Shown here: positions 359 through 46,159 of the stretch, piece by piece
How positions within the stretch are numbered: the first letter of the stretch is position 1
Layout: each line of letters starts with the position of its first letter
From: a virus
DNA length: 51,612 nt
Strand: one strand, 5' to 3'
Virus record (IMG/VR): IMGVR_UViG_3300050821_001801
Location: 1-51,612 of that record
Made by a program: the position numbers and the translations under genes
Notes under the pieces: model-generated
Told to the model about the DNA's origin: nothing
The model's input: only the letters and a program-made list of their open reading frames with translations
Database searches by the model: none

Positions 359-2809
359 TTGAGTAGCATGCTTCAAGCCCTCGCGAACCATCGCGGGTTT
401 GTAGTCTATCGCTTGGCGCCTTTGCCAAACGGTAAGACTGACAAAATCCCTATTGATGGCGTGACCGGCTACAACTCGGATGCACAAAACACAGCCACGT
501 GGTTAACACCCGACTTGGCCGAAGCCTTCGCGCGCGAGTGGGCGCCGATTTACAAAGACGGCACCGGGGTGGGCATTCTCATATATGAAGGCTCACAGCT
601 ATTTTGCATTGACATTGACGGGTGCGTCATCGACGGGCAGCCCAACGCGTTTGCCCTCGCAATCATTGACCGCTTCCCCGGCGCCGTGGTGGAAGTGTCA
701 GCGAGCGGCAAGGGGCTGCACATCTTCGGGGTGTATCGCGGCATCTTGCCCCCGCACAAGACGAAGAACACGCATTGGCATGTGGAGTTGTACACCAAGG
801 CCCGCTTTATCGCGTTGACCGGCAAATACTACCGCGACGGCTACGTGGGCACCGACTGCACCGACGCGCTGACGGCCTTTGCCGCTGAATACTTCCCGCA
901 AACCGGGGGCGCGTTCTCGGGCGAGTGGACAGACGGACCCGCCGAGGGGTGGGATTTTATCCGCGACGATGACGAAATGTTGAAGTGGGCGCACGGCTTT
1001 CGCGACGCAAAAAGCGCGTTTGGCGGCAAGGCGCCAGTGTGGGCACTCATGGATGCCCACGAATCAATCGGGCAATGGTTCCCCCCAAATTCACACGGGC
1101 AGTTATATGACGCATCATCGGCGGATCAAGCATTGGCAAACTTTTTTGCGTGGGCTACTGGCAACGATTGCGAGCGTGTGGCTAGGCTTCTACAGCGTAC
1201 CGCCCTCAAGCGCAGCAAGTGGGAGCGCGAAGATTATTTCAATGGAACCGTTGCGAAAGCCTGCACCGGCACCAAGCCGTGGCCAACCGCTCGGGCCATT
1301 GCCCAATCAACGCAGGTTGCGCCTGCCAGCACTGTACCGTGGGAAGCACCACCCCGGCAGGAACAGCATGTGGTGGCTGACGGTGTAGTCCCGCAGGTTG
1401 ACGGTGCGGTCATACCCGAAGTGCCGGCAGCGATGCCCGGAAGCGACGGGGTGATACCTCGCGGGGGCATGCTCTTTACAGCGGACCAACAAAAAGTCTT
1501 CGCCGGCCTCACCTATGTTGAAGATGTGCATATGGTGATGATGCCGGACGGGGATTTGCTTGACCAAAAGCGTTTCGACTTACGCGAGCCATTGGCCGGC
1601 CGCGACTTCCAAATGGTAGTTGACGGCAGCAACCCGAGTGATTCGGCTTGGAAAGCCTTTACGGCGGGCATGATTCAGTTTCCGAAGGTGCGCGGCCAAT
1701 ACTTCGAGCCACGCGAGGAACCCGGCGCAATCATGGTACGCGAGGGCAAACGATACGTGAACAGTTGGCGTCCCATCGTCATTGATGCGACACCGGGCAA
1801 CTACCAATGGTTCATTGACCATTTGCACAAGCTGTTGCCCCCGGCGACGCACGGCAACGATGCACACATACTCTTGCAATTTCTCAAATTCATGGTGCAA
1901 CACAAAGGGGTCAAGGCTGCTTGGTTCCCGTTCCTGCAAGGTGTGGAAGGCAACGGCAAATCCTTCATCAACGACACCATGCAATATTGCCTTGGCGAAT
2001 TCTATACCCACACACCGAGGCCAAACGAATTGGCCGGCCGCTTCAACTCGGCATTTTATGGCAAGCTGTTCATTCGCATTGAGGACATACAGTTGGCCGA
2101 CGCGCGGCACATTTGGGAAACCCTCAAGCCCATGGTGGACGGCAAGCGCCTTGAAATCGAATACAAGGGCGTTGACAAAGTTGCGCGCGAAGTGTGCTTC
2201 AACATGCTGGCAACTTCCAATTTCAAAGACGGCATACCCGTTACCAGCAATGACCGACGCGTGGCGCCGTTCTTCTGTGCGCAGCAAGTCGAAGCGGATT
2301 TGGAGCGTGACGGGCTAACGGTCGCCTACTTTCAAAACATGTGGACTACGGCTGCCGCAGGCGGTTGGGCTGCGGTGCTCCACTACTTGAGCACGGACCC
2401 AATTGACCCCGCCTACAATCCCGCTGTGGAAGCTATCCGCGCGCCCCGCACATCGTCCACATTCGCAGCCAAGGCCGTGACCATGGGCAGTGTTGAGCAA
2501 GAGATATTGGAAGCCGTGGAAATCAGCGCCGAGGGCTTTGCGGGCGGTTGGATATCCTCGGCAGCCCTTGACCGCATGTTGAAGCAAAACGGCAAAGACA
2601 AGGTGCTATCACTCAATAAACGTTCGGCAATGCTCGGTGCCCTCGGGTATATCCCGCATCCGGGCTTGACCGATGGCCGCGTAGCAACTCCCCTGCCCGA
2701 TGGCACACGTCCCCGATTGTTCGTCAAATCAGGGCACTTGACCGCAACCGCGACAGATAAAGCCCTAATCAGGCAACTTTATTTGAACGCGCAAGGCTCC
2801 AAAATGTGA
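359..2809 (+). CDS. Primase-polymerase / SF3 helicase fusion (replication initiator)
   Basis: An 816-residue two-domain replication protein. The N-terminal part matches archaeo-eukaryotic primase (PrimPol) logic: an Asp-x-Asp metal motif at residues 85-87, a Ser-Gly-Lys-Gly-Leu-His strand (His ~121) and a downstream Thr-Gly-Lys. The C-terminal part is an SF3-like/DUF5906 AAA+ helicase, with Walker A Gly-Val-Glu-Gly-Asn-Gly-Lys-Ser at ~528-535, an Ile-Glu-Asp Walker B-like strand near 574, and an Ala-Thr-Ser-Asn sensor motif. Similar fusions prime and unwind DNA in phages such as NrS-1. Two starts are possible, TTG at 359 (used here) or ATG at 368. It ends inside a CRP-like palindrome. Confidence 0.9.
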   Translation: MSSMLQALANHRGFVVYRLAPLPNGKTDKIPIDGVTGYNSDAQNTATWLTPDLAEAFAREWAPIYKDGTGVGILIYEGSQLFCIDIDGCVIDGQPNAFALAIIDRFPGAVVEVSASGKGLHIFGVYRGILPPHKTKNTHWHVELYTKARFIALTGKYYRDGYVGTDCTDALTAFAAEYFPQTGGAFSGEWTDGPAEGWDFIRDDDEMLKWAHGFRDAKSAFGGKAPVWALMDAHESIGQWFPPNSHGQLYDASSADQALANFFAWATGNDCERVARLLQRTALKRSKWEREDYFNGTVAKACTGTKPWPTARAIAQSTQVAPASTVPWEAPPRQEQHVVADGVVPQVDGAVIPEVPAAMPGSDGVIPRGGMLFTADQQKVFAGLTYVEDVHMVMMPDGDLLDQKRFDLREPLAGRDFQMVVDGSNPSDSAWKAFTAGMIQFPKVRGQYFEPREEPGAIMVREGKRYVNSWRPIVIDATPGNYQWFIDHLHKLLPPATHGNDAHILLQFLKFMVQHKGVKAAWFPFLQGVEGNGKSFINDTMQYCLGEFYTHTPRPNELAGRFNSAFYGKLFIRIEDIQLADARHIWETLKPMVDGKRLEIEYKGVDKVAREVCFNMLATSNFKDGIPVTSNDRRVAPFFCAQQVEADLERDGLTVAYFQNMWTTAAAGGWAAVLHYLSTDPIDPAYNPAVEAIRAPRTSSTFAAKAVTMGSVEQEILEAVEISAEGFAGGWISSAALDRMLKQNGKDKVLSLNKRSAMLGALGYIPHPGLTDGRVATPLPDGTRPRLFVKSGHLTATATDKALIRQLYLNAQGSKM

Positions 2810-2876
2810 CGCACGTCACAGTTTAAGCATAATTCCCTAGTTATGTGCGGCACCGTACAGTTGACGAAGCCGTCAA
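2805..2876 (+). promoter_or_regulatory. Promoter region with CRP-like palindrome and TTGAC operator
   Basis: TGTGA-N6-TCACA is perfect at 2805-2820. A weak -10 (TATGTG, 2842-2847) would place the palindrome centre at -41.5. A perfect TTGAC-N6-GTCAA palindrome lies at 2861-2876; its first half can also act as a -35 with a TATGCC -10 at an 18-bp spacing. The region drives the gene pair at 2999-3981. The palindromes are seen directly; the promoter assignments are inference. Confidence 0.6.
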
Positions 2877-2922
2877 GTAATCATTATGCCTACGTGGTGT
2901 TAAGGTTATGTCTGACAGAAAC

Positions 2923-2938
2923 TTGACGTAATGGTCAA
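2923..2938. promoter_or_regulatory. TTGAC-N6-GTCAA operator (perfect)
   Basis: Second exact copy of the palindrome in this 189-bp gap, 62 bp after the first; both are followed by GTAA. No convincing -10 box follows, so it may act as an auxiliary operator for the gene at 2999. Confidence 0.7.
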
Positions 2939-2998
2939 GTAACCTTAACCCCGCGATGACTTGTTGAAATATTTTTCACATCATTAGGAGTAATTGAC

Positions 2999-3745
2999 AT
3001 GACTATTTTAGATACAATCGAAAAGAAGCACTACGTTGCGACCGAACACGATGTAGAGCAATTGGCCGCTTCGCACTTCAACAGTGACGTGTTGACCAAA
3101 CGAAGCGATGGGCAATATCTGCGCATCCTTGTAGCTGCTATGAAATCGCAGTTTGGCAATGGTCGCAGTGCGCGGCGCAAGCTGTCGCCGGCCGACACCG
3201 AGACATACCGGGCATTCCTCACCGAGACACACGGCAAGCTATACGCTGCGGTGCTTCGCGGGGTCACGACACCCGACTGTGCCGACGATGAAGTCTTGGC
3301 AGCGGACGAACGGCGCCAACGGGCAGCGGTACGCAACGGGCGGGCAGGGTTCGCACGGTCAAGTGCGTCCACACTCCAAAGCTTCCTCAAAGCCGGGGGT
3401 GACGTGCGGACACTGGATGTGAACACCGTTACCAAAGGGGCCTTGCGGGCCGCTGTGGCAGCCACCAAGGAACCCGACATAGCGCCCGAGGCCACGGCAG
3501 CGGGGGCAGCCCTGCGCCGCTTGGAGCGCGATATAGGCGCCCTTGTGGAAGTCAACCACGATGCCGGGCGCGAGTTGGTGGAAGAAGCAATGGAACGGCT
3601 GCAAGCCATCCTTGACCAACTTGACACCGAGGCCCCGCAGCCCTTGCCATTGCCCGAGGCACGGGCGCCGGCACCGAGAATGCCCCGTGGGGGCTTCCGC
3701 CCGAGTGAAACCACAGTGCAACGGGCACGCGCACGGGTGCAATAG
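2999..3745 (+). CDS. Unknown phage protein, 248 aa, Ala/Arg-rich
   Basis: I do not recognise the family. The protein is soluble, rich in Ala, Arg and Glu, and mostly helical in appearance. Its C-terminus (residues ~205-248) is low-complexity, Pro/Arg-rich and basic, which would suit nucleic-acid binding. An AGGAG ribosome site stands before the ATG. It is the first gene after a region holding one CRP-like and two TTGAC palindromes, so it is probably one of the most tightly regulated early genes. It overlaps the next gene by 1 bp. Confidence 0.75.
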   Translation: MTILDTIEKKHYVATEHDVEQLAASHFNSDVLTKRSDGQYLRILVAAMKSQFGNGRSARRKLSPADTETYRAFLTETHGKLYAAVLRGVTTPDCADDEVLAADERRQRAAVRNGRAGFARSSASTLQSFLKAGGDVRTLDVNTVTKGALRAAVAATKEPDIAPEATAAGAALRRLERDIGALVEVNHDAGRELVEEAMERLQAILDQLDTEAPQPLPLPEARAPAPRMPRGGFRPSETTVQRARARVQ

Positions 3746-3981
3746 TGGACGCGCTTGACTTGAGCAACCTTAGTCTGTCCGACGTGCAACACATCTTGCA
3801 TGTGATGCGCGGGAATCGGGACCGGCTGACGGAGTTGTGCGAGTTGTTGCGCGAACGGCAACGGGCAATAGGGGGCAACGGTCATCTGCAATCGCAAATC
3901 AACATTTGCACTGCGGAAATTAAAGCCACCACCGAAGTGATAGAAAAACTTTGGGCCATAATCTCGGCGCCCCGGCACTGA
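3745..3981 (+). CDS. Small helical protein, 78 aa, unknown
   Basis: Starts at a GTG whose first base is the last base of the preceding stop codon (TAGTG), a translationally coupled arrangement. The protein looks like a two-helix coiled coil with heptad-like Leu/Ile spacing and no Cys or membrane segment. It is the last gene before the terminator at 3988-4014. Function unknown. Confidence 0.7.
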   Translation: MDALDLSNLSLSDVQHILHVMRGNRDRLTELCELLRERQRAIGGNGHLQSQINICTAEIKATTEVIEKLWAIISAPRH

Positions 3982-6523: not shown

Positions 6524-6839
6524 TGTCGGCTTCGGGGTTGCCATACCAAGCCAATTGCCATTTGGTCACCAAATCCTTGACGCATTGGGCTACCGCAGCT
6601 TGCAACAAGTCGTGGTGCTGTTTGGTAAGGCCCACCGGCACTTGCAGCGCATAGGGTTGCCAAACGTTAACAGCGGCACGCACCCGAGTAGGCACCTTCA
6701 TGACTTGACAATCAATGCACGCCCCGGTGGAAGTGTAGCGTTCGGACATGTGGCCGCGTCGGCAGGGATGGTCTGGTATAAACCGTTTTTCTCCCCTAGC
6801 TTGCGCCGCTGCACGTAGGAAATAATGTGTTGTACCCAT
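6507..6839 (-). CDS. Zinc-ribbon/HNH-like small protein, 110 aa
   Basis: Residues ~26-45 hold a Cys-x3-His and a Cys-x2-Cys arrangement (His-Pro-Cys-Arg-Arg-Gly-His ... Cys-Ile-Asp-Cys), resembling the metal-binding half of small phage HNH/EndoVII-like proteins, but no catalytic His-Asn-His half follows. The C-terminal part is helical. It is the first leftward gene from the AT-rich divergent region. A TAACAT hexamer ten bases before the ATG would give a leader of about 3 nt. Confidence 0.65.
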   Translation of the reverse strand: MGTTHYFLRAAAQARGEKRFIPDHPCRRGHMSERYTSTGACIDCQVMKVPTRVRAAVNVWQPYALQVPVGLTKQHHDLLQAAVAQCVKDLVTKWQLAWYGNPEADNAPKD

Positions 6840-7143
6840 GTTGCACCTATGTTAAGAATTTATTAAACGCTGACCGCACTTTGGGGAACCCGCACCCCCT
6901 TTTAAGTCGGTATCGAATTCATTATTAATGTTTTAAGGTTAAAAAGCAAATATCAATTGTTTTCATTCTTATTGAATTTATTAATAGTCTATCTCCCTTA
7001 GAAATAGAAAAAGTGCGGGTGTGCGGGTTTTTGAGGATTATTTGCAGTAACTTCAAGCACTTAGAGTAAACGAAAGTGCGGGCTAGGTGCGGGTGTGCGG
7101 GCTACTTGCGGGCACCCCTCGCGCACGGTATGGTGTGGGCATC
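6840..7143. repeat. AT-rich divergent region with GTGCGGG repeats; candidate replication origin
   Basis: A 300-bp gap between divergent genes. The centre (about 6900-7010) is strikingly AT-rich for this genome. Flanking it are repeats of GTGCGGG: two as CCCGCAC-type on the left (6873-6879 with one mismatch, 6889-6895 exact) and five on the right (7013, 7021, 7076, 7087, 7095). Two of these make an identical 15-bp doublet at 7013-7027 and 7087-7101. Iterons beside an AT-rich stretch are a classic origin layout; they could equally be binding sites for a regulator of the two outward promoters. Confidence 0.55.
7106..7134 (+). promoter_or_regulatory. Promoter for the small terminase gene (near-leaderless)
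   Basis: -35 TTGCGG (7106-7111), 17-bp spacer, -10 TATGGT (7129-7134). The predicted start (7141) is 3 nt before the ATG at 7144, and no Shine-Dalgarno is visible. It closely resembles the promoter at 20363-20391. The last GTGCGGG repeat ends 4 bp upstream of the -35. Confidence 0.5.
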
Positions 7144-7923
7144 ATGAACGCACGCGCACAAGATGTTGTTTTGGCAAGCGATTCTTGCACTCAAAAGCAA
7201 GAAGATTTCGCGCGCTATTACGTCGAATGCCGGAACGCTACTACCGCGTACCGGCTTGCGTACAACGTTGGGCGCGACACGCTACCCGCCACGCTGTGGT
7301 CGGAAGCCTCGCGGCAGCTACGCCACCCCCTGATTGCCGCAAGGATTCAAGAATTACAAGAGGAAGCTGCGGCGCTGACGATTGTTAAAGCGCGCGACAT
7401 TGTGCAGGATTGGGTTGACCAAGCCGGTACCGACGCAAACGAATTGGTGCAACTACGCACGGTGAATTGCCGGCATTGTTGGGGCGACGCGGGGCGCTAT
7501 CAGTGGCGCGATGAAAACGAATTATTGGACGCTGTGCAAGAGAAGCAAGACGATGTTGACCGAGGCGTCAAGCACGTCAAAATGCCGGATGTGCGCGGGG
7601 GCTTCGGATTCGATGCGAAGAAACCGCCGAACCCCGATTGCGTGAAGTGCCTTGGCGCTGGCCAAATAGTCGTCAAGTTCACCGACACCGACAAATTAAG
7701 CCCGCGTGCGCGCAAGCTGTACAAAGGGGCCAAGGTCACGTCGCAGGGCACCGAGTTGCTGTTGCATGATGCGAACGCGTCCCGCATCGAAGTGGCCAAG
7801 GCGTTGGGTATCTATGACAAGGGTGTGCAGTTGAACCCTGCGGAACCGGAAGCGCCACCGCAGGCAGATGTTGACGAAACAAAGGCAGCGGCCGGCTATC
7901 TCGAAATGATCGGGCCGGCATAA
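7144..7923 (+). CDS. Terminase small subunit
   Basis: A 259-residue DNA-recognition subunit of the packaging motor. Residues ~17-60 match the Terminase_2/HTH type: Gln-Lys-Gln-Glu-Asp-Phe-Ala-x-Tyr-Tyr followed by Ala-Tyr-Arg. A central Cys-x2-Cys (~104) and a second Cys-x2-Cys-x-Gly-x-Gly (~173) look like a zinc-finger insertion seen in some phage TerS proteins. The acidic C-terminal tail may contact TerL. It lies alone on the plus strand, ~5.2 kb before the large subunit, separated by leftward early genes. ATG 7144 is chosen over in-frame GTG codons upstream because homology begins there. Confidence 0.85.
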   Translation: MNARAQDVVLASDSCTQKQEDFARYYVECRNATTAYRLAYNVGRDTLPATLWSEASRQLRHPLIAARIQELQEEAAALTIVKARDIVQDWVDQAGTDANELVQLRTVNCRHCWGDAGRYQWRDENELLDAVQEKQDDVDRGVKHVKMPDVRGGFGFDAKKPPNPDCVKCLGAGQIVVKFTDTDKLSPRARKLYKGAKVTSQGTELLLHDANASRIEVAKALGIYDKGVQLNPAEPEAPPQADVDETKAAAGYLEMIGPA

Positions 7924-7978
7924 CAGGATTGACGCGCGGTTGGGTGCTCCCCCAAGGTGGCCGTGCGCAATTGGTGGC

Positions 7979-7997
7979 GCCGGGGTTATTCCCCGGC
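7979..7997 (+). terminator. Hairpin after the small terminase gene
   Basis: Perfect 7-bp GC stem (GCCGGGG / CCCCGGC) with a TTATT loop, followed by an AT-rich but not T-only stretch. Plausible terminator for the isolated terminase transcript; it lies just 3' of the converging leftward block. Confidence 0.45.
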
Positions 7998-8002
7998 CGT
8001 CA

Positions 8003-8167
8003 TTATTTAAAGGCCCTATCCCAACCAGCCGTCACCCACGCTAAGAACGGACCGTGTTGCGAAAGCTTCATGCGTCGAATGACCACACTAGGCCAGTGCC
8101 GAGTAAACGCATGGGCGTGCGCAATTGACGGTGCGGTCAACATGTAGCTATCCGCATTCCTCGGCAT
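8003..8167 (-). CDS. Possible small protein, up to 54 aa
   Basis: Open frame from ATG 8167, 15 bp after the upstream gene. The C-terminal ~40 residues (Trp-, His-, Arg-rich) look protein-like. The N-terminus overlaps the TTGAC palindrome at 8125-8140, so the true start is uncertain. No recognised family. Confidence 0.35.
   Translation of the reverse strand: MPRNADSYMLTAPSIAHAHAFTRHWPSVVIRRMKLSQHGPFLAWVTAGWDRAFK
8125..8140. promoter_or_regulatory. TTGAC-N6-GTCAA operator (perfect)
   Basis: Exact palindrome, overlapping the N-terminal codons of the doubtful small gene at 8003. No convincing -10 at either side. Confidence 0.6.
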
Positions 8168-8181
8168 CACCTTGTAGGTGT

Positions 8182-8562
8182 TCACTGCGCTACCCACACA
8201 AGCCACCCGTGCAGCCCGGTGCCCTCGCGGATAACATAGGTGGTGCTGCGGTTGCACTTCAATATGAACGCGTCGTGGGCCATCAAAGCCGCTTGCACGC
8301 TGTCACAGTGCCCGCCGAAGGCCCGCACCACTACCGCCATTTCGTCAACTAGCTTGCGGTCAACGTACAGCGCGATGCGCGCTTGCTCCACGTCGATTGC
8401 AACAGCCTGCATGTGCGGCGCCATTTCGAGCGCATGCGCATGCTCGGGGGATACGTCGGCAGCGCGAGCCGCGTTGTGCTCAACAATGCCGGCCATCACT
8501 AGCAGCACGGCCGCACCTAGCAGCGTGTCAAGGATTCGATGAAACCAACGTGACCTAAACAT
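8182..8562 (-). CDS. N-terminally anchored or exported protein, 126 aa
   Basis: A basic start (residues 1-10) and hydrophobic segment (~11-28) ending near Ala-Arg-Ala-Ala form a signal peptide or membrane anchor; the remaining ~95 residues would face the periplasm. AGGAG precedes the ATG. Two cysteines could form a disulfide. It follows the 48-residue gene closely. Function unknown. Confidence 0.7.
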   Translation of the reverse strand: MFRSRWFHRILDTLLGAAVLLVMAGIVEHNAARAADVSPEHAHALEMAPHMQAVAIDVEQARIALYVDRKLVDEMAVVVRAFGGHCDSVQAALMAHDAFILKCNRSTTYVIREGTGLHGWLVWVAQ

Positions 8563-8566
8563 GGCT

Positions 8567-8713
8567 CTATGCTCCTAATCGTTTGAGAACTTCCAACCGT
8601 TCGGCCTCGGCACGCGCAAGGGCCTCAAGCTGCGCCGGGGTCATGCGCAAGCGGGCAGTTTCCGTGATGCCTCGGTGCGCGTCGTGATTGCTGCGTGTGT
8701 TTTGCTTGTCCAT
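8567..8713 (-). CDS. Small charged protein, 48 aa
   Basis: Met at 8713 is chosen because the composite promoter at 8720-8780 places the transcription start exactly on this ATG (a leaderless mRNA); the longer in-frame reading would run through both operators. The protein has a polar N-terminus and an Ala/Glu/Arg helical C-terminus. Function unknown. Confidence 0.6.
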   Translation of the reverse strand: MDKQNTRSNHDAHRGITETARLRMTPAQLEALARAEAERLEVLKRLGA

Positions 8714-8719
8714 GGGTAG

Positions 8720-8780
8720 AGTATCGGTTGACGGCGCCGTCACTTGAGTGATGCGCGTCACGGTTTGACGCTTCCGTCAC
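8720..8780 (-). promoter_or_regulatory. Composite promoter: CRP-like site flanked by two TTGAC operators
   Basis: TTGAC-N6-GTCAC (8728-8743, 9/10), AGTGA-N6-TCACG (8747-8762, 8/10 to the CRP consensus) and TTGAC-N6-GTCAC (8765-8780, 9/10) lie with only 2-3 bp between them. Leftward -10 GATACT is at 8720-8725; the predicted start is base 8713, the A of an ATG. The CRP-like centre is at -41.5. Confidence 0.65.
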
Positions 8781-8928
8781 GCGGGCGCCTTGCACGCGCT
8801 GCGCTACCATAGCCGGCCATCCAAGCGGCTGTTAGAGCGGCCTTGATATCGGACGGCGCCACGGTCAAGTAGACACGTTGGGCATAGGCGTTGGCCCTGC
8901 GCTTCGGTCCGCTGTCGCGCCTACTCAC
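8758..8928 (-). CDS. Small basic protein, 56 aa
   Basis: Start at GTG 8928, which overlaps the upstream stop as GTGA and has CGGAG eight bases before it; an ATG 30 bases upstream is in frame but lies inside the neighbour. Basic ends surround a helical Ala-rich middle. Its 3' end overlaps part of the composite operator. Function unknown. Confidence 0.6.
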   Translation of the reverse strand: MSRRDSGPKRRANAYAQRVYLTVAPSDIKAALTAAWMAGYGSAARARRPRDGSVKP

Positions 8929-9290
8929 AGCCACCACTCCGTAGGGACAATGTGCCAATCAAATTGATGCCACCCGAAGGTGCGGTAGGCGTACAAATCG
9001 CCAAGCACCATTGCGCGCGGGGTTGGCCCGCCGTGCTTGAGTGCAACCGCCAATAGCTCTTGCAGGATGGGCAGCAACTTGTGCTCGGGCATGCTGCCGT
9101 GCTCAACATTCGGGCCGTACCATCGACCACCTAACATGCGCCACATGTCCCGCAGCGTGCGGTATTCGTCAAAATCAAGCGTGCCCGCGTTGGGTTCGGT
9201 GCGGTACATTTGCCAATCCGCATACTCGGGGAGCATTTCGCGGCGCAACGCCTCGGCATCCTGTGGTTGGTTGAGGTTCAAGTCTTTCAT
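8925..9290 (-). CDS. Unknown protein, 121 aa, Trp-rich C-terminus
   Basis: ATG 9290 overlaps the upstream stop (ATGA). Acidic and aromatic, with many Tyr, Trp and Met residues and an all-helical look up to ~85. The end is Trp-Trp-Leu. No catalytic motif recognised. Part of a tightly coupled four-gene run 9744 to 8758. Confidence 0.7.
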   Translation of the reverse strand: MKDLNLNQPQDAEALRREMLPEYADWQMYRTEPNAGTLDFDEYRTLRDMWRMLGGRWYGPNVEHGSMPEHKLLPILQELLAVALKHGGPTPRAMVLGDLYAYRTFGWHQFDWHIVPTEWWL

Positions 9291-9481
9291 GACAGCACCA
9301 CGTTGCGGTAGATGGCCAAGCCCTCGGCATCGTGGCCGTGGAACGTTGCGGCGCCTATGTCCCGCGAGGTATCGCGCCACATGTCGCGGCTGACAGCTTG
9401 CACGTTGACAAACAGCCCGCAGTTAGCCGGGCACATGCAGTGCTGCACGTCGGCGCAGTAGATGCGGCAACAGCCTTTCAT
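9287..9481 (-). CDS. Cys-rich mini-protein, 64 aa
   Basis: ATG 9481 overlaps the upstream stop. The first 22 residues contain six cysteines (Cys-Cys, then Cys, Cys, Cys, Cys) with a His, an arrangement that could bind zinc or an iron-sulfur centre. The C-terminal half is mixed. Function unknown. Confidence 0.65.
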   Translation of the reverse strand: MKGCCRIYCADVQHCMCPANCGLFVNVQAVSRDMWRDTSRDIGAATFHGHDAEGLAIYRNVVLS

Positions 9482-9744
9482 GACGCAAACCCCGATTGCG
9501 TCAAGCTGAATTGGGTGACGAATCCGTCACGGCCGGCTTTCATGGTGGCGCGGATTTTGCGCGCTTCCGGCCGGTGATGCCAAAAGCTTGATTCCCCTAG
9601 CGTCAAGTGCCCCGTGTGGAATTCGTCAACGCAGCCCGACAGTACCTTGCCGCGCACATCGAACGTGCGAGCGGGGATTGACGGACCACGGCCGCAAATG
9701 GGGCAACTGGTGCTAAAGAAGATTTTGGGGGTTTTGCTGGCCAT
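9478..9744 (-). CDS. Zinc-knuckle small protein, 88 aa
   Basis: The ATG at 9744 has GGAG nine bases upstream. A Cys-x2-Cys-Gly-Arg-Gly near residue 14 plus a later Cys and His residues suggest a metal-stabilised fold. The earlier in-frame ATG (9801) would begin inside the TTGAC operator. First gene of the run driven by the promoter at 9782-9824. Confidence 0.7.
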   Translation of the reverse strand: MASKTPKIFFSTSCPICGRGPSIPARTFDVRGKVLSGCVDEFHTGHLTLGESSFWHHRPEARKIRATMKAGRDGFVTQFSLTQSGFAS

Positions 9745-9781
9745 CTGCGCTACTCCAAGTTGCCCGTATCGGGTAGGTGCG

Positions 9782-9824
9782 AGAATAGACGGCCCGGTCA
9801 ACCCCGTGCGTGTCGCAGTTCACA
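9782..9824 (-). promoter_or_regulatory. Composite promoter: TTGAC operator plus CRP-like site
   Basis: Leftward: CRP-like CGTGT-N6-TCACA (9809-9824, 8/10), 7-bp gap, TTGAC-N6-GTCTA (9786-9801, 9/10 when read on either strand), -10 TATTCT (9782-9787) overlapping the end of the operator. The CRP-like centre is at -41.5. Spacing is identical to that at 12738 and 13008. Confidence 0.7.
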
Positions 9825-10146
9825 GTTCCCACATGTCGCGCATGGCTTTGCCCTCGCGTCTAGCCATGTACCGTTGTTGCGCGTGCAAGGGTGCGTCATA
9901 GCGCAAATGGCAGCACTGGCACAGCGCCCACAGGTTGCCGGGGCTGCAATCGGCCCGGTTGTGGTCACGGTGGGAAGCTTGCAGAAACACAATGCTGCCG
10001 GTTACCGGATGTATCCACCGATGCCGGGCGCCGCATCCGGGCATCTGACAGACGTTGCCTGCGCGCTCGCGCGTAGCCCTCGCAATGGCTTTCCACCCTG
10101 CCGGATACTGTGCGCGCTTGGGGGCATTGCGCTGCCAGCGCGTCAC
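9820..10146 (-). CDS. HNH endonuclease
   Basis: A 108-residue HNH nuclease. Cys-x4-Cys near residue 33-38 and a C-terminal Cys-x2-Cys-His bracket the catalytic core: Ala-Ser-His-x-Asp-His (~58-63), then Asn-Leu-Trp-Ala-Leu-Cys (~71), the usual beta-beta-alpha-metal layout. ATG overlaps the upstream stop. In this early cluster it may nick DNA during packaging or host takeover, or be a mobile element; the sequence does not say which. Confidence 0.85.
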   Translation of the reverse strand: MTRWQRNAPKRAQYPAGWKAIARATRERAGNVCQMPGCGARHRWIHPVTGSIVFLQASHRDHNRADCSPGNLWALCQCCHLRYDAPLHAQQRYMARREGKAMRDMWEL

Positions 10147-10367
10147 GTGGCGCCGCGCAGGTATTCAAGTTCGCCCGGCTTGGGCTGCGTCATCCAATCG
10201 AAGCGGTAATACATCGCGCAATGCTCCCCGTGCGGCCCTGCGGTGCGCTGATAGGCTCGGGAGTAAAGGGCCTGCCGGTTGTGGTCCCGCACCGCCTGCG
10301 CCTCGGCAAGAGCCTTACGGCCACGGTTGGCGCACTCGGCGCAGTTGCAACCCCATTGGTGTTTCAT
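10143..10367 (-). CDS. Cys-containing small protein, 74 aa
   Basis: ATG 10367 overlaps the upstream stop (ATGA). N-terminal Cys-x-Cys-x2-Cys (residues 7-12) with a nearby His suggests metal binding. Helical Arg-rich middle. Function unknown; sits between a zinc-ribbon gene and the HNH gene. Confidence 0.65.
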   Translation of the reverse strand: MKHQWGCNCAECANRGRKALAEAQAVRDHNRQALYSRAYQRTAGPHGEHCAMYYRFDWMTQPKPGELEYLRGAT

Positions 10368-10576
10368 GCGTCACACGCGCAATCTGTGCAGGCGCCGTCT
10401 TCGTCCACTTCGTCGCGCTCCACCCACCACCCGCAAACGTCGCATTGGTACACCAACGCTTCAACATCCGAGATTAGGGCCACGTCATCCATTTCGCCGG
10501 GTTCGTTGGCAGCGTCAGCCATGTCTTTGCACGTGCCTAGCAATTCCTCGGCAATTTCCTGCGCGCGAGCATTCAC
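10364..10576 (-). CDS. Acidic zinc-ribbon protein, 70 aa
   Basis: GTG at 10576 is chosen: GAGGG stands seven bases upstream and it overlaps the upstream stop as GTGA. The first half is helical and acidic. The second half carries Cys-x2-Cys-Gly-Trp-Trp then Cys-x2-Cys, a rubredoxin-like knuckle pair. Possibly an adaptor that binds a host protein; that is a guess. Confidence 0.7.
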   Translation of the reverse strand: MNARAQEIAEELLGTCKDMADAANEPGEMDDVALISDVEALVYQCDVCGWWVERDEVDEDGACTDCACDA

Positions 10577-10737
10577 GGGTTTACCCTCACTGGCGGAATG
10601 AACGCGCGGCCGGCGCAATAGGACTGCCACGCAAGTTGGGTGGTGGCGTTGGTGTAGCCGGCCTTTCCATACTCGAAGTTCACCCCGGTGTAGGAGCCAC
10701 CGAACCAAATTTCAAACGCCCGGCGCAAGTGGGTCAC
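10573..10737 (-). CDS. Small phage protein of the Phe-Glu-x-Trp / Ala-Trp family, 54 aa
   Basis: GTG at 10737 overlaps the upstream stop (GTGA) and its own stop overlaps the next start. The sequence Phe-Glu-Ile-Trp, then Tyr near the middle, then Thr-Gln-Leu-Ala-Trp and Ala-Gly-Arg is a pattern I recognise in many short phage proteins of unknown role. The coupling on both sides leaves little doubt it is translated. Confidence 0.7.
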   Translation of the reverse strand: MTHLRRAFEIWFGGSYTGVNFEYGKAGYTNATTQLAWQSYCAGRAFIPPVRVNP

Positions 10738-11006
10738 TTGGGAATTACCGACGTGTCAACCGCATCCGATGCCGGCAGCGTGACACCGCCCGCGCGCTTG
10801 GCAGCCTTGCGCAGCCGCTTCAACTCTGCGGCATTCAGCGCCGCAACGTGCTCGGGACTACCCTCGCGCGCTTTCTCCCGGTGCAGCCGGTTGGCATTCG
10901 TGATTTGTGGGCGGGGCGTCATATGCGGCGCTAGGAACGCGTGCATTGCTCCGAGTATCCGCGCACGGCCTAGCATTTCCCGCACGTTCACTTTTGGCTT
11001 GTCCAT
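10734..11006 (-). CDS. Basic helical protein, 90 aa, unknown
   Basis: Lys/Arg-rich, mostly helical, with a disordered Val/Ser/Asp tail. No domain recognised. It starts 16 bp after the Toprim gene and is coupled to the next gene by a GTGA overlap. Confidence 0.65.
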   Translation of the reverse strand: MDKPKVNVREMLGRARILGAMHAFLAPHMTPRPQITNANRLHREKAREGSPEHVAALNAAELKRLRKAAKRAGGVTLPASDAVDTSVIPK

Positions 11007-11021
11007 GTCGTCAAGTACCTC

Positions 11022-11906
11022 TTAGAAGTTGTCGGCTGTGTCCTGCAATCGTGCGCGCACGTCCACAATTTCGCTGTGACGTTCGTCCCACAATCCGGCA
11101 TCAATGTACTTGGCCGTCCATTCGCGGACAAGCTGCCCGAGGTATTGCGGCGCCAGTGCGTCCAACTCCCAAGATTCTTCACCGAAGTTGCGCACGTAGT
11201 CTTCAAAGCGGCTATCCGTTGACTTCGCCGGGTTCGGGGGTGGCTTCTGTTCGTCAATCTGCGCCATGTTCAAGGCGATGCGGTGGAAGGTCAACGGCAC
11301 GTCCCATTCGTTGAACATCTGCAACCGTTCTTCCAAATCGCGCGACATGTCGATGCCGCTAGGGTCATGGTCACCCAAGTGCAGGATGATGGCGCCCTGC
11401 CCTTCGTGCGCGCATCGGGCCAAGTCTACCTTGGCGAATTCGCGCAGCACCGTGCCGGACGGATAGCCGCGCGCGGGCAACAGCGGCATGTCAAGTTCGT
11501 GGCAAACGCCTTCGAGCACACCGGCCAAGGCTTCTTTTTCCACGATGACGAACACGCGCGAGTCTTGACCCGCCCACATGTCCATATAGAACTGCGAGGC
11601 TACCGCATGCAGAATGTCGTTGCCGGTGTCCCAATGCGGACGCTTGGCAAAGCTGCGGGTGCGGTCTTCGATGGCGTCCCAATCAATGAGGCCGGCCAAC
11701 CGCGCGTCATTCACAAGGCCGGTGGTGCGCTTGTAGCTGCGCTCCGTGTTTTCGATGAAACCGCGCGCAACAAGCTGGTAGTAAAGTTGGCGCACCGTGA
11801 GGCGGTAGCCCTGCGCGATGTACTCGGACACGATGCCGTTAACAAGGTCAATCGTGTGCAGCGCAGCCGCGCGGAATTCAAAGTGCTTGTAAAATTGTTT
11901 GCTCAT
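11022..11906 (-). CDS. Topo VI-A / Spo11-like Toprim protein
   Basis: A 294-residue stand-alone relative of the type IIB topoisomerase A subunit. The N-terminal winged helix has Arg-Gln-Leu-Tyr-Tyr (residues 39-43), equivalent to the paired-tyrosine motif that holds the cleavage Tyr in Topo VI-A/Spo11. A conserved Asn-Asp-Ala-Arg ... Gly-Leu-Ile stretch follows. The Toprim domain shows Glu123 (Val-Glu-Lys-Glu) and Asp-His-Asp-Pro-Ser-Gly (179-184). No GHKL B subunit is encoded here, so strand passage is not expected; nicking, cleavage or priming roles are open. ATG 11906 is 2 bp after the upstream stop. Confidence 0.8.
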   Translation of the reverse strand: MSKQFYKHFEFRAAALHTIDLVNGIVSEYIAQGYRLTVRQLYYQLVARGFIENTERSYKRTTGLVNDARLAGLIDWDAIEDRTRSFAKRPHWDTGNDILHAVASQFYMDMWAGQDSRVFVIVEKEALAGVLEGVCHELDMPLLPARGYPSGTVLREFAKVDLARCAHEGQGAIILHLGDHDPSGIDMSRDLEERLQMFNEWDVPLTFHRIALNMAQIDEQKPPPNPAKSTDSRFEDYVRNFGEESWELDALAPQYLGQLVREWTAKYIDAGLWDERHSEIVDVRARLQDTADNF

Positions 11907-11908
11907 GG

Positions 11909-12139
11909 TTAACCCGCCCGGAAGTCGCGAAGAATCAAGCACGGTTCGCCGGCCTCGCGGATGCGCACCACAGTGGTGGCCTCGGACAACCACGCATCCG
12001 GGTGTTCGTCCCCGTGCCCCTCGGCTGCCGCGCGGGCTTCCTTGCGTGCTGTCTTGGGCGACGCTGCGCGCACCACCATGGCCGCGTTTTCGTCGTACCC
12101 CACGGCCTCGGGGTCACGGGTCAAAAGGTAAATTTTCAT
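11909..12139 (-). CDS. Small alpha/beta protein, 76 aa, unknown
   Basis: AGGAG stands before ATG 12139. It starts with a beta-like Met-Lys-Ile-Tyr-Leu-Leu strand followed by an Ala-rich basic helix and an acidic loop. First gene of the long coupled run 12139 to 9820; no family recognised. Confidence 0.7.
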   Translation of the reverse strand: MKIYLLTRDPEAVGYDENAAMVVRAASPKTARKEARAAAEGHGDEHPDAWLSEATTVVRIREAGEPCLILRDFRAG

Positions 12140-13170: not shown

Positions 13171-14802
13171 ATGCCGCAGATTGAAGTCGATTGGAAAAAC
13201 CCCAACTACCAAGCGGTGTTCGTGGAACGCGCCCGGCGCCTCGCGTGGCTGCGGGCCAATCCTGACAAGCTGCCAGCGGTCAAAAAGCACTATGCAAGCG
13301 CCCCCGGTGGCATTGCGCAGTTTATTTCCGATTGGGCCATGACCTTAGACCCCCGCGTGTCCGGCCGTGGCCGCACGCCCCTAATGCCGTTCCTGCTATT
13401 CCCCAAGCAAGTGGAGTTGGTTGACTTTGTGATAGAACGTTGGCGCAACGGTGAGCCGGGCGTCATGGTCAAGAGCCGCGACGTAGGCGCATCGTGGATT
13501 GCGTTTGCCACGGCTTGCGCGCTGTCGATTTTCAACAAGGATTTTATGGCCGGCTTCGGGTCCGCCAAAGAAGACAAGTTGGACCGTTCGGGCGATCCCG
13601 ATACGCTTTTTGCCAAGGGCCGGGCGTTCATGCAGTACATACCGCCCGAGTTTCGCGCGGGGTGGACGCTCAAAAATAACAGCCAACATTTGCGCCTAAC
13701 GTTCCCTGATACCGGCTCAAGCATCACGGGTGAGGCCGGCGACAACATGGGACGCGGTGGCCGTAAAGCAATCTACTTCGTGGATGAAGCGGCTTTCGTT
13801 GAACGGCCATTGTTAATTGATGGCAACTTGTCGGCCAACACTGATTGCCGCATTGACATGTCCACGGTGAATGGCACGGCAAACCCCTTCGCGCAAAAAG
13901 CCATGTCCGGCAAAATCAAGCGGTTTGATTTCACTTGGCGGGATGACCCGCGCAAAGACGAAGAATGGTATGCCAAGAAGTGCGCCGAGTTGGACAACCC
14001 CATCATTGTGGCACAGGAACTTGATTGCAGCTTCACGGCATCCGCCGAGGGTGTCATCATTCCGTCACTATGGGTGCAAGCGTGCCTTGACGCACACGTC
14101 AAGTTAGGTATCAAACCCACGGGCATCAAGCGTGGTGGCTTGGACGTGTCGGACCTTGGACGCGACAAAAACGCCTTTGTGGTGCGCCATGGCATCCTAG
14201 TGCCGCATGCTTCACAGTGGACCGGCAAGGAATCCTACATGTCCGAGACAGCGGAAAAGGCGTTCACGTTGTCGGATGATTGGGGCTTGTCTAGTTTCCT
14301 GTATGACGGCGACGGCATGGGCGCCGGCACGCGCAGCGATGTGAAACGCATTTCCGACAATCGCGCGCTGCAAAAACTGCGCCCCGTGGTTGCCACGATG
14401 TACCGAGGCAGTGGCGCCGTGCATGACCCCGAAGGCTATGTGAAGGGCACGGACCGCAAGAATGAGGATTACTACAAAAATGCCAAGGCGCAAAATTGGT
14501 TCCACGTGCGGGACCGCTGCAAGATTACCTATAATGCAGTGGTCAACGGGCTGCCCTATGACCCCAACATGATTTTGTCGATATCGTCCACGTGCCCGGA
14601 GCGGCAACGGCTTATGGCCGAACTGTCACAGCCGGTGTACAAATCAGACAACGCGGGCAAGATGTTGGTGGACAAACTGCCGGATGGGGCGCTGTCGCCC
14701 AACCTCGCGGATGCCTTGGTCATCGCTTTTAGCCTCGGGTACGAACCCATGGCAATCAGCGACGCGGCCTTGAATGCTTGGGGTCCGCAGATACGGGAGT
14801 GA
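13171..14802 (+). CDS. Terminase large subunit
   Basis: A 543-residue packaging ATPase/nuclease. The Walker A is the variant Lys-Ser-Arg-Asp-Val-Gly-Ala-Ser (101-108), the Walker B Tyr-Phe-Val-Asp-Glu-Ala (202-207), followed by a Ser-Thr-Val-Asn-Gly coupling motif near 231. The RNase H-like nuclease has Asp325/Asp328 (Gly-Leu-Asp-Val-Ser-Asp) and Asp379/Asp381, and a C-terminal Asn-Leu-Ala-Asp-Ala-Leu acidic strand. Full length for the family. First gene of the late operon. AGGA lies rather far (12 bases) from the ATG. Confidence 0.93.
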   Translation: MPQIEVDWKNPNYQAVFVERARRLAWLRANPDKLPAVKKHYASAPGGIAQFISDWAMTLDPRVSGRGRTPLMPFLLFPKQVELVDFVIERWRNGEPGVMVKSRDVGASWIAFATACALSIFNKDFMAGFGSAKEDKLDRSGDPDTLFAKGRAFMQYIPPEFRAGWTLKNNSQHLRLTFPDTGSSITGEAGDNMGRGGRKAIYFVDEAAFVERPLLIDGNLSANTDCRIDMSTVNGTANPFAQKAMSGKIKRFDFTWRDDPRKDEEWYAKKCAELDNPIIVAQELDCSFTASAEGVIIPSLWVQACLDAHVKLGIKPTGIKRGGLDVSDLGRDKNAFVVRHGILVPHASQWTGKESYMSETAEKAFTLSDDWGLSSFLYDGDGMGAGTRSDVKRISDNRALQKLRPVVATMYRGSGAVHDPEGYVKGTDRKNEDYYKNAKAQNWFHVRDRCKITYNAVVNGLPYDPNMILSISSTCPERQRLMAELSQPVYKSDNAGKMLVDKLPDGALSPNLADALVIAFSLGYEPMAISDAALNAWGPQIRE

Positions 14803-42225: not shown

Positions 42226-42684
42226 ATGTTCAAGAGCGATTTAATTCTAATCGCAAATCCGGGGCGCCCTGACTTTTGGTTCACGGGCGCCCCTCTCATT
42301 TGGGAAGACCCCACCGGCCTTACCATCACGGTGCCCGAGGGCTTCCGCACGGACATGGCGAGCATTCCCCGATTTCTCGAAGCGTTCCCCGACTTGGACA
42401 TAGACGGCCGCAGCCGGCGCCCCGGAGTGCTCCACGATTGGCTTTATGGTGCCGCCCGGTGGGTTGGGAAGCTGGTAGCGGATGGGGTGCTGTTTCAGGC
42501 TCTAATTGCCGAGGGCATGGATAAAAAAGGAGCCTTGGCAATCTACCAAGGGGTTCACCTATTCGGCGCATCCGCGTGGGCGGAAGATGGCACCGAATCC
42601 GTGGCAGGCATGTTCCGCACCCATGACCTTTATTTGGCGTGGCTCGGAACGCACCCGCAGTTGAACCCGACAAGCGCCGGCTAG
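42226..42684 (+). CDS. DUF1353 protein
   Basis: A 152-residue protein with the DUF1353 signature: Val-Pro-x-Gly-Phe-Arg-Thr-Asp-Met-Ala-Ser-Ile-Pro-Arg and Arg-Arg-Pro-Gly-Val-Leu-His-Asp-Trp-Leu-Tyr-Gly. Found at the end of many phage late operons; its role is not settled. Overlaps tail-to-tail by 4 bp with the DNA polymerase. Confidence 0.82.
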   Translation: MFKSDLILIANPGRPDFWFTGAPLIWEDPTGLTITVPEGFRTDMASIPRFLEAFPDLDIDGRSRRPGVLHDWLYGAARWVGKLVADGVLFQALIAEGMDKKGALAIYQGVHLFGASAWAEDGTESVAGMFRTHDLYLAWLGTHPQLNPTSAG

Positions 42685-44903
42685 GCTGCAAGCTTCATCA
42701 CGGCATCTTCCGCGTTTTCAAATTTGCCGTACCGAAACCCACGCCAACCACCGGCCGCTTTGATTGGCCAGTCGCGCGCCCACGGTTCAACGTCGCACAT
42801 GATGCGCTCGAATTCTTCGACGCTGCCCCAACCTATCGGCACTTCGCCGCAAATTTCGTCATGGGTGTGAAGCACAGGCCGGTAGCCGGCCTTTTCGAGC
42901 CGCACCAATGCGCCGGCCTGCAAGTCGCGCGCGACGGCCTGCACGACGTTTTCAAACAGCACACCGCCGTAGAGATACATCCGAATCCAACCCTTGGGGC
43001 CTTTCTTCGGGTTGGTGTTCTCGCCCATGTAGGACAGCGACAATTCCCACGGGCTTGCATGGTCGCGGGTGCTCGGCATCAAGCGCGGTTCGTGGTACGT
43101 GAGCATGCGCCCCGAGGGCAGCCGGCAATATAGGCAGTCCCCGTGCATCTGATAAGTGATTGCGCGGTAGCCAAAGGCTGTGCCGGGGTTGAGCACCGCT
43201 TGGATGGCGGCACCTTCAAGGCCATAGTATTGCTGATATTCGGCAACCCAATTGCCTTGGGGGTCACGGTTGAATTTGTTGCGCGTCTGTCCGCCCCACA
43301 TTTCAACAATCCATGGTGACTTTGCGCGCCACGCCAGGATGCCGGCTTTTATTTCGTCATCGGTCAAAAATTCATCGGCGCCAAAATTCTTCCATGCGGG
43401 TATCCAACCGCCGAACTGTGACCCGAGGGCGCCGGGCTTGCCGATGGTTTGCCGCGTCGGGTGATGCTTGCCGGTTTCGCGTTTGTGGCGCCGGTATTCT
43501 TCCATTGGGATGCCGGTCACCAATGATGCGGTAGCTTCATAAATCAGCGCATCGGTGCGGTAAACTTCCAACATCCATTCTTCGCCCGCGAGGCCAGCGG
43601 CCACAACGTTTTCTATGCCGGTGAAGTCGGAGCAAACGAAGTCGAAGCCGGGGGCCGCAGTGAACAGCGAGCGCAACACATCGCAGACGGTTTCCAGCGC
43701 GTCCCCGTATTCATACTCCAACAATTCGAGACTGCCGGCCTTGATGAAGGTTAGCGCGCGTTCAATGGCACCGATGTTGGGCAGCTTGCCCTTATATAAA
43801 TTCTGCGGCTGCGGGCCGTTGCCGGTCCACCGGCCGGTGTGGCTGGCGTAGTAGCTGTATAGGTCATGCAGCCGTTGCGCTGCGCTCGCGCACGCGGACA
43901 TTGCAAACAGCTTCTTGACGGATGCGGACCCAACCAATTGTCGAATTTCGAGCGCGCGGCGAACCTCGGGCGGCAGTGTGCCGGCCAAGAATTCGTCTAT
44001 GGATTCTTCTGTGGCCGACGCCATGTAAACGCCACGGGTGCCGGCCCAGGTCTTCAACGCTGGCAGCTTTGATGCCTCGGACACGGCGCCATTGGTGATG
44101 ACCCGCAATTCCGCGTTGTATTTCATGAAGGCTTGTTTGACTATCGCTATGCAGGCATCCACGCCCTCGCGGTCAATATGCAAGCCTCGGTTGTTGACGA
44201 TTTGGTCAACCTGCCATATTTCCAATTCAGCCGGTGACAAGTCGGGGATGCGCACGGACACTTGCGCTTCCGCCTTAATGTCCACACGATTGTACAGCTT
44301 GAACTTTTCATAGTCGGCCGGGTCATCACTTGGCAACAGACGCTTGCGCGGTATCTTCTTTGTAGGTTTGCGCGGCATCGTCCATTTGGTAATCATGCGC
44401 TTGCCGTCAGCCATCTTGCCTTCGGTGATTTGCAGCACATCGCCCACGGCGCCGAGGCTACCGGGTAACGCGTGGGCACGGGCCTTGGCCTGCGCGCATC
44501 GAAGGTTGCGGGGATTCAGCGCCGGCCATCCAAGTTTCGGCACGCAATGGTAGGTCCACACATCGTATTCAAACCCGACGCGGAACGCTTCGAGCAATCC
44601 GCCACGGTTGATGTGGTCGAATAAATCTTGGGGGTAGGGCATGCCCGGCAACCATTGCCGAGGGCCAAGGCCGTCTTTCAAATCATAGGCCAGCATGAGC
44701 AATTCAAAAGTGGGGTGCTCCACGTAGACGCGCGAGCCGGTGGCCTTTATGCCGCGCTTCTGTGCGCCGCAGCCGTCCGGGGCATCCCACTTTTGCAAAG
44801 CCTCATTCCAAACCAACCCGGCTTCGCTGTAGGTTTCAAAGTCAAAATCGGGAAGTACAGTTGCGGTGCCGGCGCCGGCCGCGTAGACGGTTCCGGCAAT
44901 CAT
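42681..44903 (-). CDS. DNA polymerase, family A
   Basis: A 740-residue replicative polymerase. 3'-5' exonuclease-like motif Asp-Phe-Glu at ~21-23 in the N-terminus. Polymerase motif A near 425 (Ser-Asp-Phe-Thr-Gly-Ile-Glu), motif B near 485 (Arg-Gln-Thr-Ile-Gly-Lys...Gly-Ser-Gln-Phe-Gly-Gly), motif C His-Asp-Glu near 690. Last gene of the leftward replication operon, directly after the 63-residue zinc protein (4-bp overlap). Confidence 0.93.
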   Translation of the reverse strand: MIAGTVYAAGAGTATVLPDFDFETYSEAGLVWNEALQKWDAPDGCGAQKRGIKATGSRVYVEHPTFELLMLAYDLKDGLGPRQWLPGMPYPQDLFDHINRGGLLEAFRVGFEYDVWTYHCVPKLGWPALNPRNLRCAQAKARAHALPGSLGAVGDVLQITEGKMADGKRMITKWTMPRKPTKKIPRKRLLPSDDPADYEKFKLYNRVDIKAEAQVSVRIPDLSPAELEIWQVDQIVNNRGLHIDREGVDACIAIVKQAFMKYNAELRVITNGAVSEASKLPALKTWAGTRGVYMASATEESIDEFLAGTLPPEVRRALEIRQLVGSASVKKLFAMSACASAAQRLHDLYSYYASHTGRWTGNGPQPQNLYKGKLPNIGAIERALTFIKAGSLELLEYEYGDALETVCDVLRSLFTAAPGFDFVCSDFTGIENVVAAGLAGEEWMLEVYRTDALIYEATASLVTGIPMEEYRRHKRETGKHHPTRQTIGKPGALGSQFGGWIPAWKNFGADEFLTDDEIKAGILAWRAKSPWIVEMWGGQTRNKFNRDPQGNWVAEYQQYYGLEGAAIQAVLNPGTAFGYRAITYQMHGDCLYCRLPSGRMLTYHEPRLMPSTRDHASPWELSLSYMGENTNPKKGPKGWIRMYLYGGVLFENVVQAVARDLQAGALVRLEKAGYRPVLHTHDEICGEVPIGWGSVEEFERIMCDVEPWARDWPIKAAGGWRGFRYGKFENAEDAVMKLAA

Positions 44904-45091
44904 TCTGTGAGCACTTGCCGTTCGCGTTCCGCTTGTACGTCAACGGTGCGGCCATCGCAGCGGGGGCAATGGAAGTGCGCCCCGCCCGGTGGGATTGCTT
45001 CGACAGTTTCAAGCCACATGTGAGTGCAGACGGTGCAACGCAGGGACAAATCCCAAACCACTTTGCTGTGCATCTGTGGCATGGGGCACAT
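44900..45091 (-). CDS. Zinc-ribbon small protein, 63 aa
   Basis: Cys-x2-Cys (~19-22) and Cys-x2-Cys (~42-45) form a four-cysteine ribbon. It begins 1 bp after the previous stop, and its stop overlaps the polymerase start. Possibly a replication accessory factor. Confidence 0.7.
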   Translation of the reverse strand: MCPMPQMHSKVVWDLSLRCTVCTHMWLETVEAIPPGGAHFHCPRCDGRTVDVQAERERQVLTE

Positions 45092-45092
45092 T

Positions 45093-45236
45093 TTACTTGC
45101 GGTTCTTCCGCCTACTTAGTTTAGCAGCTTTATTCCGCGCTCGCTGCCGGGCCTTGTTTTGATCGAACCAAGGGGCGTTGCCGCCCCCCGGTTTGACTTG
45201 GCCGCGTGCCGTGTTGCTGCGCGCGTTGCCGCCCAT
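45093..45236 (-). CDS. Very basic mini-protein, 47 aa
   Basis: ATG 45236 shares its A with the SSB stop (TAATG). Nearly all of the second half is Arg/Lys/Asn. Suggests nucleic-acid or SSB-tail binding. The longer antisense reading of the SSB gene in this frame is a shadow. Confidence 0.6.
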   Translation of the reverse strand: MGGNARSNTARGQVKPGGGNAPWFDQNKARQRARNKAAKLSRRKNRK

Positions 45237-46159
45237 TACGCGATGTGCCCGGCCGCTCGGGCCGTGGCTTCGGTCCAACCGGCTGCCACCAAGGCTTCCC
45301 ATGTGACGCCCGGAAGCTTCACGGTGGGGCCTACGGGCGCCGCTGGCGGCAGGAGAGCCGCAGGCGGGGCAATCATGGCCGGTTGAGGGACAACCGCCAC
45401 AGGGGCCGGTGCGGCTGCCGCAGGGGCAGGCACAGCGGGACCGGGCGCCGGGATGCCGGGCACAGGGGCCGCAACACCCGGAAGGGGCGCAGCGGGCGCG
45501 GGAGCCGGCGCAGGGGCCGACATTCCGCCCACGGGGGTGGCAGACATGCCGGTAGGCGCTGCACCGCCCCAAGCCACCGCTGCCGCGTCCGGGCCTACGT
45601 GGATTTCGGGGCCGAACCCTTGGAACGCAACCAACGAATGATTGAGATAAATTCCGGGGTTCATGTCGCTGCGGTTGCTGTCCGCCGTGGCCTGCACTTG
45701 GACGTAGTAACCCAACTTCACATAGTCGGGGGTGTCCAACACTTGCGTGCCGTTGCTGTTGTAGATGCGGGGCGGGAAACCGGAAGACAGGTTGACAATC
45801 CAACAACCCTTGAAGCCTTCACGGTCGCAATTCTTCTTGCCCTTCTTGTTCGGTATTTGGCTGTCGCCGTCTTCAACTTTCCACGCGAACGTCGGGGCCT
45901 TGGCTTGACCGGCCGGCCAACTCGAATGACCCAACGCCCAAAGCTTGGCGCCCCACTCGGTTTGCGCCCAATGGGTGTGGCCGGGCAACTTTTCGATGGC
46001 ACCGGAAAAGAAATACTTGACGGTGGGCTTGCCCTGATTCGGGCCTGACTTCACAACCAACGGTTTGCCGTCGCCGTCTTTGTCCTGCGCTTTGTACAAG
46101 CTGCCTTGCACAACCCGCATGACGGGTAAAAGAATGTCTATCTTCGTGGTGTTGCTCAT
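45236..46159 (-). CDS. Single-stranded DNA-binding protein (DUF2815-like)
   Basis: A 307-residue protein. Residues ~1-185: OB-fold DUF2815 type (Lys-Tyr-Phe-Phe-Ser-Gly-Ala-Ile, Gly-x-Trp-Ile-Val-Asn-Leu-Ser, Val-Lys-Leu-Gly-Tyr-Tyr-Val-Gln-Val). Then ~80 residues of Ala/Pro linker and a C-terminal Leu-Pro-Gly-Val-Thr-Trp-Glu-Ala-Leu...Gly-Trp-Thr motif. Coats ssDNA in replication. Coupled to the exonuclease by ATGA. Confidence 0.85.
   Translation of the reverse strand: MSNTTKIDILLPVMRVVQGSLYKAQDKDGDGKPLVVKSGPNQGKPTVKYFFSGAIEKLPGHTHWAQTEWGAKLWALGHSSWPAGQAKAPTFAWKVEDGDSQIPNKKGKKNCDREGFKGCWIVNLSSGFPPRIYNSNGTQVLDTPDYVKLGYYVQVQATADSNRSDMNPGIYLNHSLVAFQGFGPEIHVGPDAAAVAWGGAAPTGMSATPVGGMSAPAPAPAPAAPLPGVAAPVPGIPAPGPAVPAPAAAAPAPVAVVPQPAMIAPPAALLPPAAPVGPTVKLPGVTWEALVAAGWTEATARAAGHIA

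Follow-up and report, generated by a model that had tools for sequence, protein, structure and literature searches.

A Mini-A gene, encoding a stand-alone Topo VI-A/Spo11-like protein, in the terminase region of a 51.6-kb viral contig

Mini-A proteins have been described as truncated homologues of the A subunit of topoisomerase VI (Topo VI-A, or Top6A) of archaeoviruses and bacteriophages, and the protein of Pseudomonas phage NP1 was shown as an example (PMC7614492). According to the literature, R102 and Y106 of Top6A go together with E202, D254 and D256, and their counterparts in Spo11, the enzyme whose DNA cuts initiate meiosis, are R131 and Y135 with E233, D288 and D290. The Arg/Tyr pair of Spo11 is located in the second helix of the winged helix, and a C-terminal clasp glutamate has been reported for both proteins (E342 in Top6A, E386 in Spo11). 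Topo VIII is, like Mini-A, a type IIB relative found on plasmids and integrated elements; it includes an ATPase part, whereas Mini-A does not. The JetD/MksG proteins (DUF2399, Wadjet) have a Toprim core similar to that of Mini-A. The initial annotation of the DNA studied here called A-only proteins little studied, and this agreed with one review, which states that no archaeal Mini-A has been characterised. No report on the biochemical activity of any Mini-A was found in the literature.

The window, i.e., the whole stretch of DNA analysed, was a viral contig of 51,612 bases (IMG/VR record IMGVR_UViG_3300050821_001801), in which no exact terminal repeat was detected. A gene for a Topo VI-A/Spo11-like protein had been placed at 11022-11906. 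The coordinates proved right, but the gene was found on the minus strand, where 294 codons run from an ATG at 11906 to a TAA stop at 11022. The plus-strand frame of the same interval was interrupted by a stop and encoded no comparable protein. The features of the locus were as follows.

10734-11006, minus strand: small downstream gene of unknown function, 90 aa, which begins 15 bases past the Mini-A stop.
11022-11906, minus strand: Mini-A gene, 294 aa, an R39/Y43 winged-helix domain followed by a Toprim domain with E123, D179 and D181 (translation, PHROG 6247, 77 phage relatives, model with a pLDDT of 91).
11364-11372, minus strand: codons of D179-H-D181, the Toprim DxD, invariant and aligned with the DxD of Top6A.
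11538-11540, minus strand: codon of the Toprim glutamate E123, invariant and aligned with the metal-binding Glu of Top6A.
11778-11792, minus strand: codons of R39-Q-L-Y-Y43, the cleavage motif with the predicted catalytic tyrosine Y43; R39 and Y43 are invariant (164 members and six further relatives) and lie in the second helix of the winged helix in the model.
11909-12139, minus strand: small upstream gene of unknown function, 76 aa, PHROG 5444; 2 bases separate its stop codon from the start of Mini-A.

As the gaps to the neighbouring genes were only 2 bases upstream and 15 bases downstream, the Mini-A gene was assigned to a tight leftward gene string that occupies ~8.9-12.7 kb of the window. 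Because of the 2-base gap between stop and ATG, the upstream 76-aa gene and the Mini-A gene are probably on the same transcript. Two plus-strand genes flanked the string, that of the small terminase at 7087-7923 and that of the large terminase at 13171-14802. In the initial annotation, this part of the window had been taken for an early region. A small HNH endonuclease gene (9820-10146, minus strand; PHROG 1571, E 7e-18) was located in the same string, downstream of Mini-A. The record also codes for a DNA polymerase, a primase, a helicase, an exonuclease and a Gp2.5-like annealing protein. The polymerase, annealing-protein and exonuclease genes formed a single leftward block at 42681-47271 (minus strand), which is likely a recombination-replication module of the phage. 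In the record as it stands, 33 kb separate Mini-A from the genes of the exonuclease and the annealing protein.

The encoded protein matched PHROG 6247 "DNA topoisomerase" end to end (E 2e-121), shared 58% identity with the NP1 exemplar from one end to the other (E 1e-109), and matched a protein of the archaeal plasmid P-7H_11 annotated as 'Topo Mini-A' (28% identity, E 3e-21, 90% of the query). Based on these three matches, the window gene is by its sequence a Mini-A gene. The motifs, the structure model and the profile alignment agreed on the composition of a truncated Top6A, i.e., a tyrosine-bearing winged helix and a Toprim domain in 294 aa and no fused ATPase part. The NP1 Mini-A resembled the window protein in its length, in the R-x-x-Y-Y, E and DxD residues and in the absence of a B subunit. 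The gene is already covered by the described Mini-A family, which is widespread in phages; its contribution is one more sequence, from a different phage background, and not a new kind of protein.

Relatives were found in 77 phage records, which name the gene DNA topoisomerase, and in 51 plasmid records; at least 596 were confirmed in a scan of viral contigs and 145 in a scan of bacterial and archaeal genomes. The closest relative among the matches listed from the viral-contig scan was 69% identical. The carriers were mobile elements (phages, plasmids and viral contigs) and also bacterial chromosomal contigs. Substitutions between the window gene and its relatives fell mostly at third codon positions. 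No relatives were returned by viral scans in which two distant plasmid relatives were used as the queries. Double Mini-A copies in three bacterial loci were only apparent and were rejected as clustering artefacts. In the Roseobacter phage RDJL Phi 1 (HM151342.1, 14406-15265), the match was split in two, possibly by a frameshift or a sequencing error.

Distant relatives of ~30% identity were carried by many Streptomyces plasmids, some of which are recorded as linear. Two distant relatives were located at 2208-3065 of NZ_CP101650 and at 2974-3822 of NZ_CP109385. On one linear Streptomyces plasmid of 34 kb, the relative was situated 2.2 kb from the end, and a link of these plasmid genes to telomere handling is conceivable.

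Further, the residues expected of a cleavage centre were compared. The Arg-Gln-Leu-Tyr-Tyr, Toprim Glu and Asp-His-Asp motifs read in the initial annotation were all present in the window protein (RQLYY, R39-Y43; VEKEAL, E123; GDHDPSG, D179-D181). Their conservation was not due to chance: R39, Y43, E123, D179, D181 and also E247 were invariant both in an alignment of 63 members and in a set of 164 taken from viral contigs and genome contigs. As the loci of the genome contigs had been searched for by a pattern that included the DHDPS stretch, its invariance in them was partly selected, while R39, Y43, E123 and E247 were unbiased. R39 and Y43 were still kept when five distant plasmid relatives (28-33% identity) and the NP1 protein were added. 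The idea of paired tyrosines stood for the window protein itself but not for the family, in which the first tyrosine was replaced by F, W, H or A and only the second, Y43, was universal. The alignment thus predicts Y43 alone as the catalytic candidate.

The same pattern was recorded in 75 archaeal Top6A sequences, which had Y or F at the first position and an invariant Arg, second Tyr, Glu, pair of Asp and C-terminal Glu. The R-to-Y spacing of 4 in Mini-A equals that of R102/Y106 in Top6A and of R131/Y135 in Spo11. E247 lies in a WELDAL stretch that by eye resembles SEQQAF of Top6A, but the two were not aligned by the profile comparison.

The profile-profile comparison of Mini-A (170 sequences) with the 75 archaeal Top6A gave a co-linear alignment of 196 columns covering residues 15-231 and both domains (probability 91%, E 1.1e-6, score 52.4), a strength that depends on the distant plasmid relatives and on the larger Top6A set, as narrower sets of more similar sequences gave a probability of 1.5-2%. 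The tyrosine block, the Glu and the DxD were all in register. The best score among 39 unrelated neighbour families, used as the control, was 26.2. Compared with archaeal Top6A, Mini-A was about 70 residues shorter, shared 14% identity and had no B partner. With an HMM built only from archaeal Top6A, the scores of Mini-A were shifted, but it did not stand out from the neighbour open reading frames. When the PDB sequences were searched with one protein and with two profiles, there was no relevant match, and a search for TP6A_N in two Mini-A-carrying archaeal genomes was negative.

In single-sequence Pfam searches of the 63 members, DUF2399 was matched in 44 (best E 4.9e-5), the Toprim domain of Top6A (TOP6A-Spo11_Toprim) in 11 (best E 0.0016) and TP6A_N in 10 (best E 0.002). 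The weak matches to the latter two in some members, the controlled profile comparison and the identity to the NP1 Mini-A all upheld the first description of the protein as Topo VI-A/Spo11-like. Homology of Mini-A to Topo VI-A/Spo11, the tyrosine-bearing winged helix included, is supported at the level of sequence profiles.

The prevalence of DUF2399 matches would also suit a metal-dependent nuclease of the JetD/MksG kind, in which the Toprim domain would hydrolyse host or rival DNA and the tyrosine would be structural. JetD models match weakly as well, and MksG is a DNA-cutting protein that lacks a tyrosine at the 5Y-CAP position (PMC10123090). The window protein itself reached 16.7 bits against the DUF2399 model, below the curated cut-off of 23.4. 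At the profile level, DUF2399 proteins aligned to Mini-A over the Toprim domain alone (residues 121-197, E 1.4e-4), with no shared tyrosine winged helix, whereas Top6A aligned to both domains. A better match to another Toprim family without the tyrosine had been named at the outset as the result that would overturn the assignment; instead, Y43 and R39 were invariant even in distant relatives with changed neighbouring residues. No SMC-like partner was seen among the named neighbour genes of Mini-A. We therefore regard a hydrolytic nuclease of this kind as quite improbable.

The AlphaFold model of the window protein (pLDDT 91.1, pTM 0.83) started with three N-terminal helices, the second of which contained R39 and Y43, as does the corresponding helix of Spo11. 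These were followed by an alternating alpha/beta domain, where E123 came after the first Toprim strand and D179/D181 after the third. The order of elements was unchanged in the model of a second family member (pLDDT 93.2). The structural match to Topo VI-A hoped for in the initial annotation was not obtained, as Foldseek searches of the two models against the PDB gave no match at E <= 0.001. Top6A was not in the best 50 and JetD was not listed either, despite its sequence similarity; since JetD was missing as well, the fold searches were judged uninformative and lend no support to the assignment. The PDB matches were mostly Rossmann-like fragments with a low TM-score, and the weak matches overall had E values of about 0.01-0.1. 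Against viral models, some DnaG-type Toprim proteins were matched by one of the models at E of about 0.1.

The expectation that no B subunit is encoded was confirmed for the 51.6-kb record, which may be incomplete. Neither HATPase_c (PF02518) nor Topo-VIb_trans (PF09239) was detected in it or in the records of 29 relatives, when the controls were detected by the same searches. The A2B2 arrangement of the Topo VI holoenzyme, with its GHKL ATPase B subunit, was thus not found. It was considered whether Mini-A could nevertheless be a minimal topoisomerase, an A-only dimer that would leave no lasting breaks. Such a dimer would relax or unlink the DNA of the phage either by nicking it in a controlled way and letting it swivel, or by passing strands together with a partner that comes from the host or has gone unrecognised. 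The name given to the gene in the records fits this explanation. Canonical strand passage is unlikely, since the ATPase B subunit was absent from the record and from those of the 29 relatives. Unlinking and relaxing are normally done by host gyrase and topo IV, which also counts against such a role. A topo VIII relaxed DNA without ATP, although weakly (PMC7614492), and both the relaxation of supercoils and the resealing of their own nicks have been described for SPO11 complexes (PMC11922745). On balance, we consider a purely topoisomerase function unlikely, though less so than a hydrolytic nuclease.

No constant partner gene was found within five genes of Mini-A across 71 viral loci. The commonest neighbour groups, named by reading their sequences, were primase-like (14), ligase-like (10) and helicase-like (10). 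When 137 nearby open reading frames were assigned to PHROG families, helicases, Sak4, ligase, primase, thymidylate synthase and single-strand binding proteins were among the top ones. At the DNA level, Mini-A was the sole gene that the 7.5-kb stretch around it shared with the best-matching phages, and the large terminase of the window was closest to another group of phages. Judged from these comparisons, the Mini-A gene probably passes by itself from one phage lineage to another.

In the phages PaMx25 (6803-10433) and NP1 (6950-9616), an ATP-dependent ligase gene, a small open reading frame, Mini-A and Sak4 followed one another, and a Cas4-domain exonuclease and a helicase came next. The start of Sak4 touched the stop of Mini-A in this compact recombination module. 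The NP1 Mini-A thus adjoins a ligase/Sak4 region, whereas that of the window is located between terminase genes.

The location of the window gene apart from the structural genes, together with a fold class that makes double-strand breaks, could also fit a weapon aimed at the chromosome of the host, which it would break at an early stage of infection. No means of sparing the phage DNA was identified, and the places in which relatives occur, near replication genes, on plasmids and in contigs of bacterial chromosomes, are ill-suited to a chromosome killer. Such a role appears highly improbable. Both host killing and JetD-like hydrolysis are less likely than cleavage by Mini-A through its tyrosine.

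We proposed that Mini-A is a stand-alone Top6A homologue, the homodimer of which probably nicks or breaks DNA via Y43 for phage replication or recombination. Two copies would dimerise in such a way that Y43 of one acts with the Toprim domain of the other, forming hybrid active sites. Duplex DNA would be nicked or broken by transesterification, with metal and without ATP, and a 5' phosphotyrosyl link would be left that could be resealed. The reaction would serve the replication or recombination of the phage's own DNA, providing either breaks or nicks for recombination enzymes or swivels that relieve torsion. In the initial annotation, recombination-based replication, the resolution of links and an attack on the host chromosome had been suggested as possible roles. 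A precedent for Mini-A is given by mouse SPO11, which alone cuts DNA, remains covalently attached and reseals nicks (PMC11922746).

A more specific version, which we put forward tentatively and with considerable doubt, is that Mini-A acts as an analogue of Spo11. It would make programmed double-strand breaks of a covalent kind in the DNA of the phage, and these would be handed over to an exonuclease and to a Sak4 or Gp2.5-type pairing protein, and the ensuing recombination would start replication or drive module exchange. If this were true, the NP1-type order of ligase, Mini-A, Sak4 and Cas4 exonuclease would represent a compact break-and-repair cassette.

With its 77 phage records and at least 596 relatives in viral contigs, Mini-A is common in phages. 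If Mini-A proteins cut DNA as Spo11 does, without a partner, they would offer a simple system for studying the control of type IIB cleavage and the origin of Spo11.
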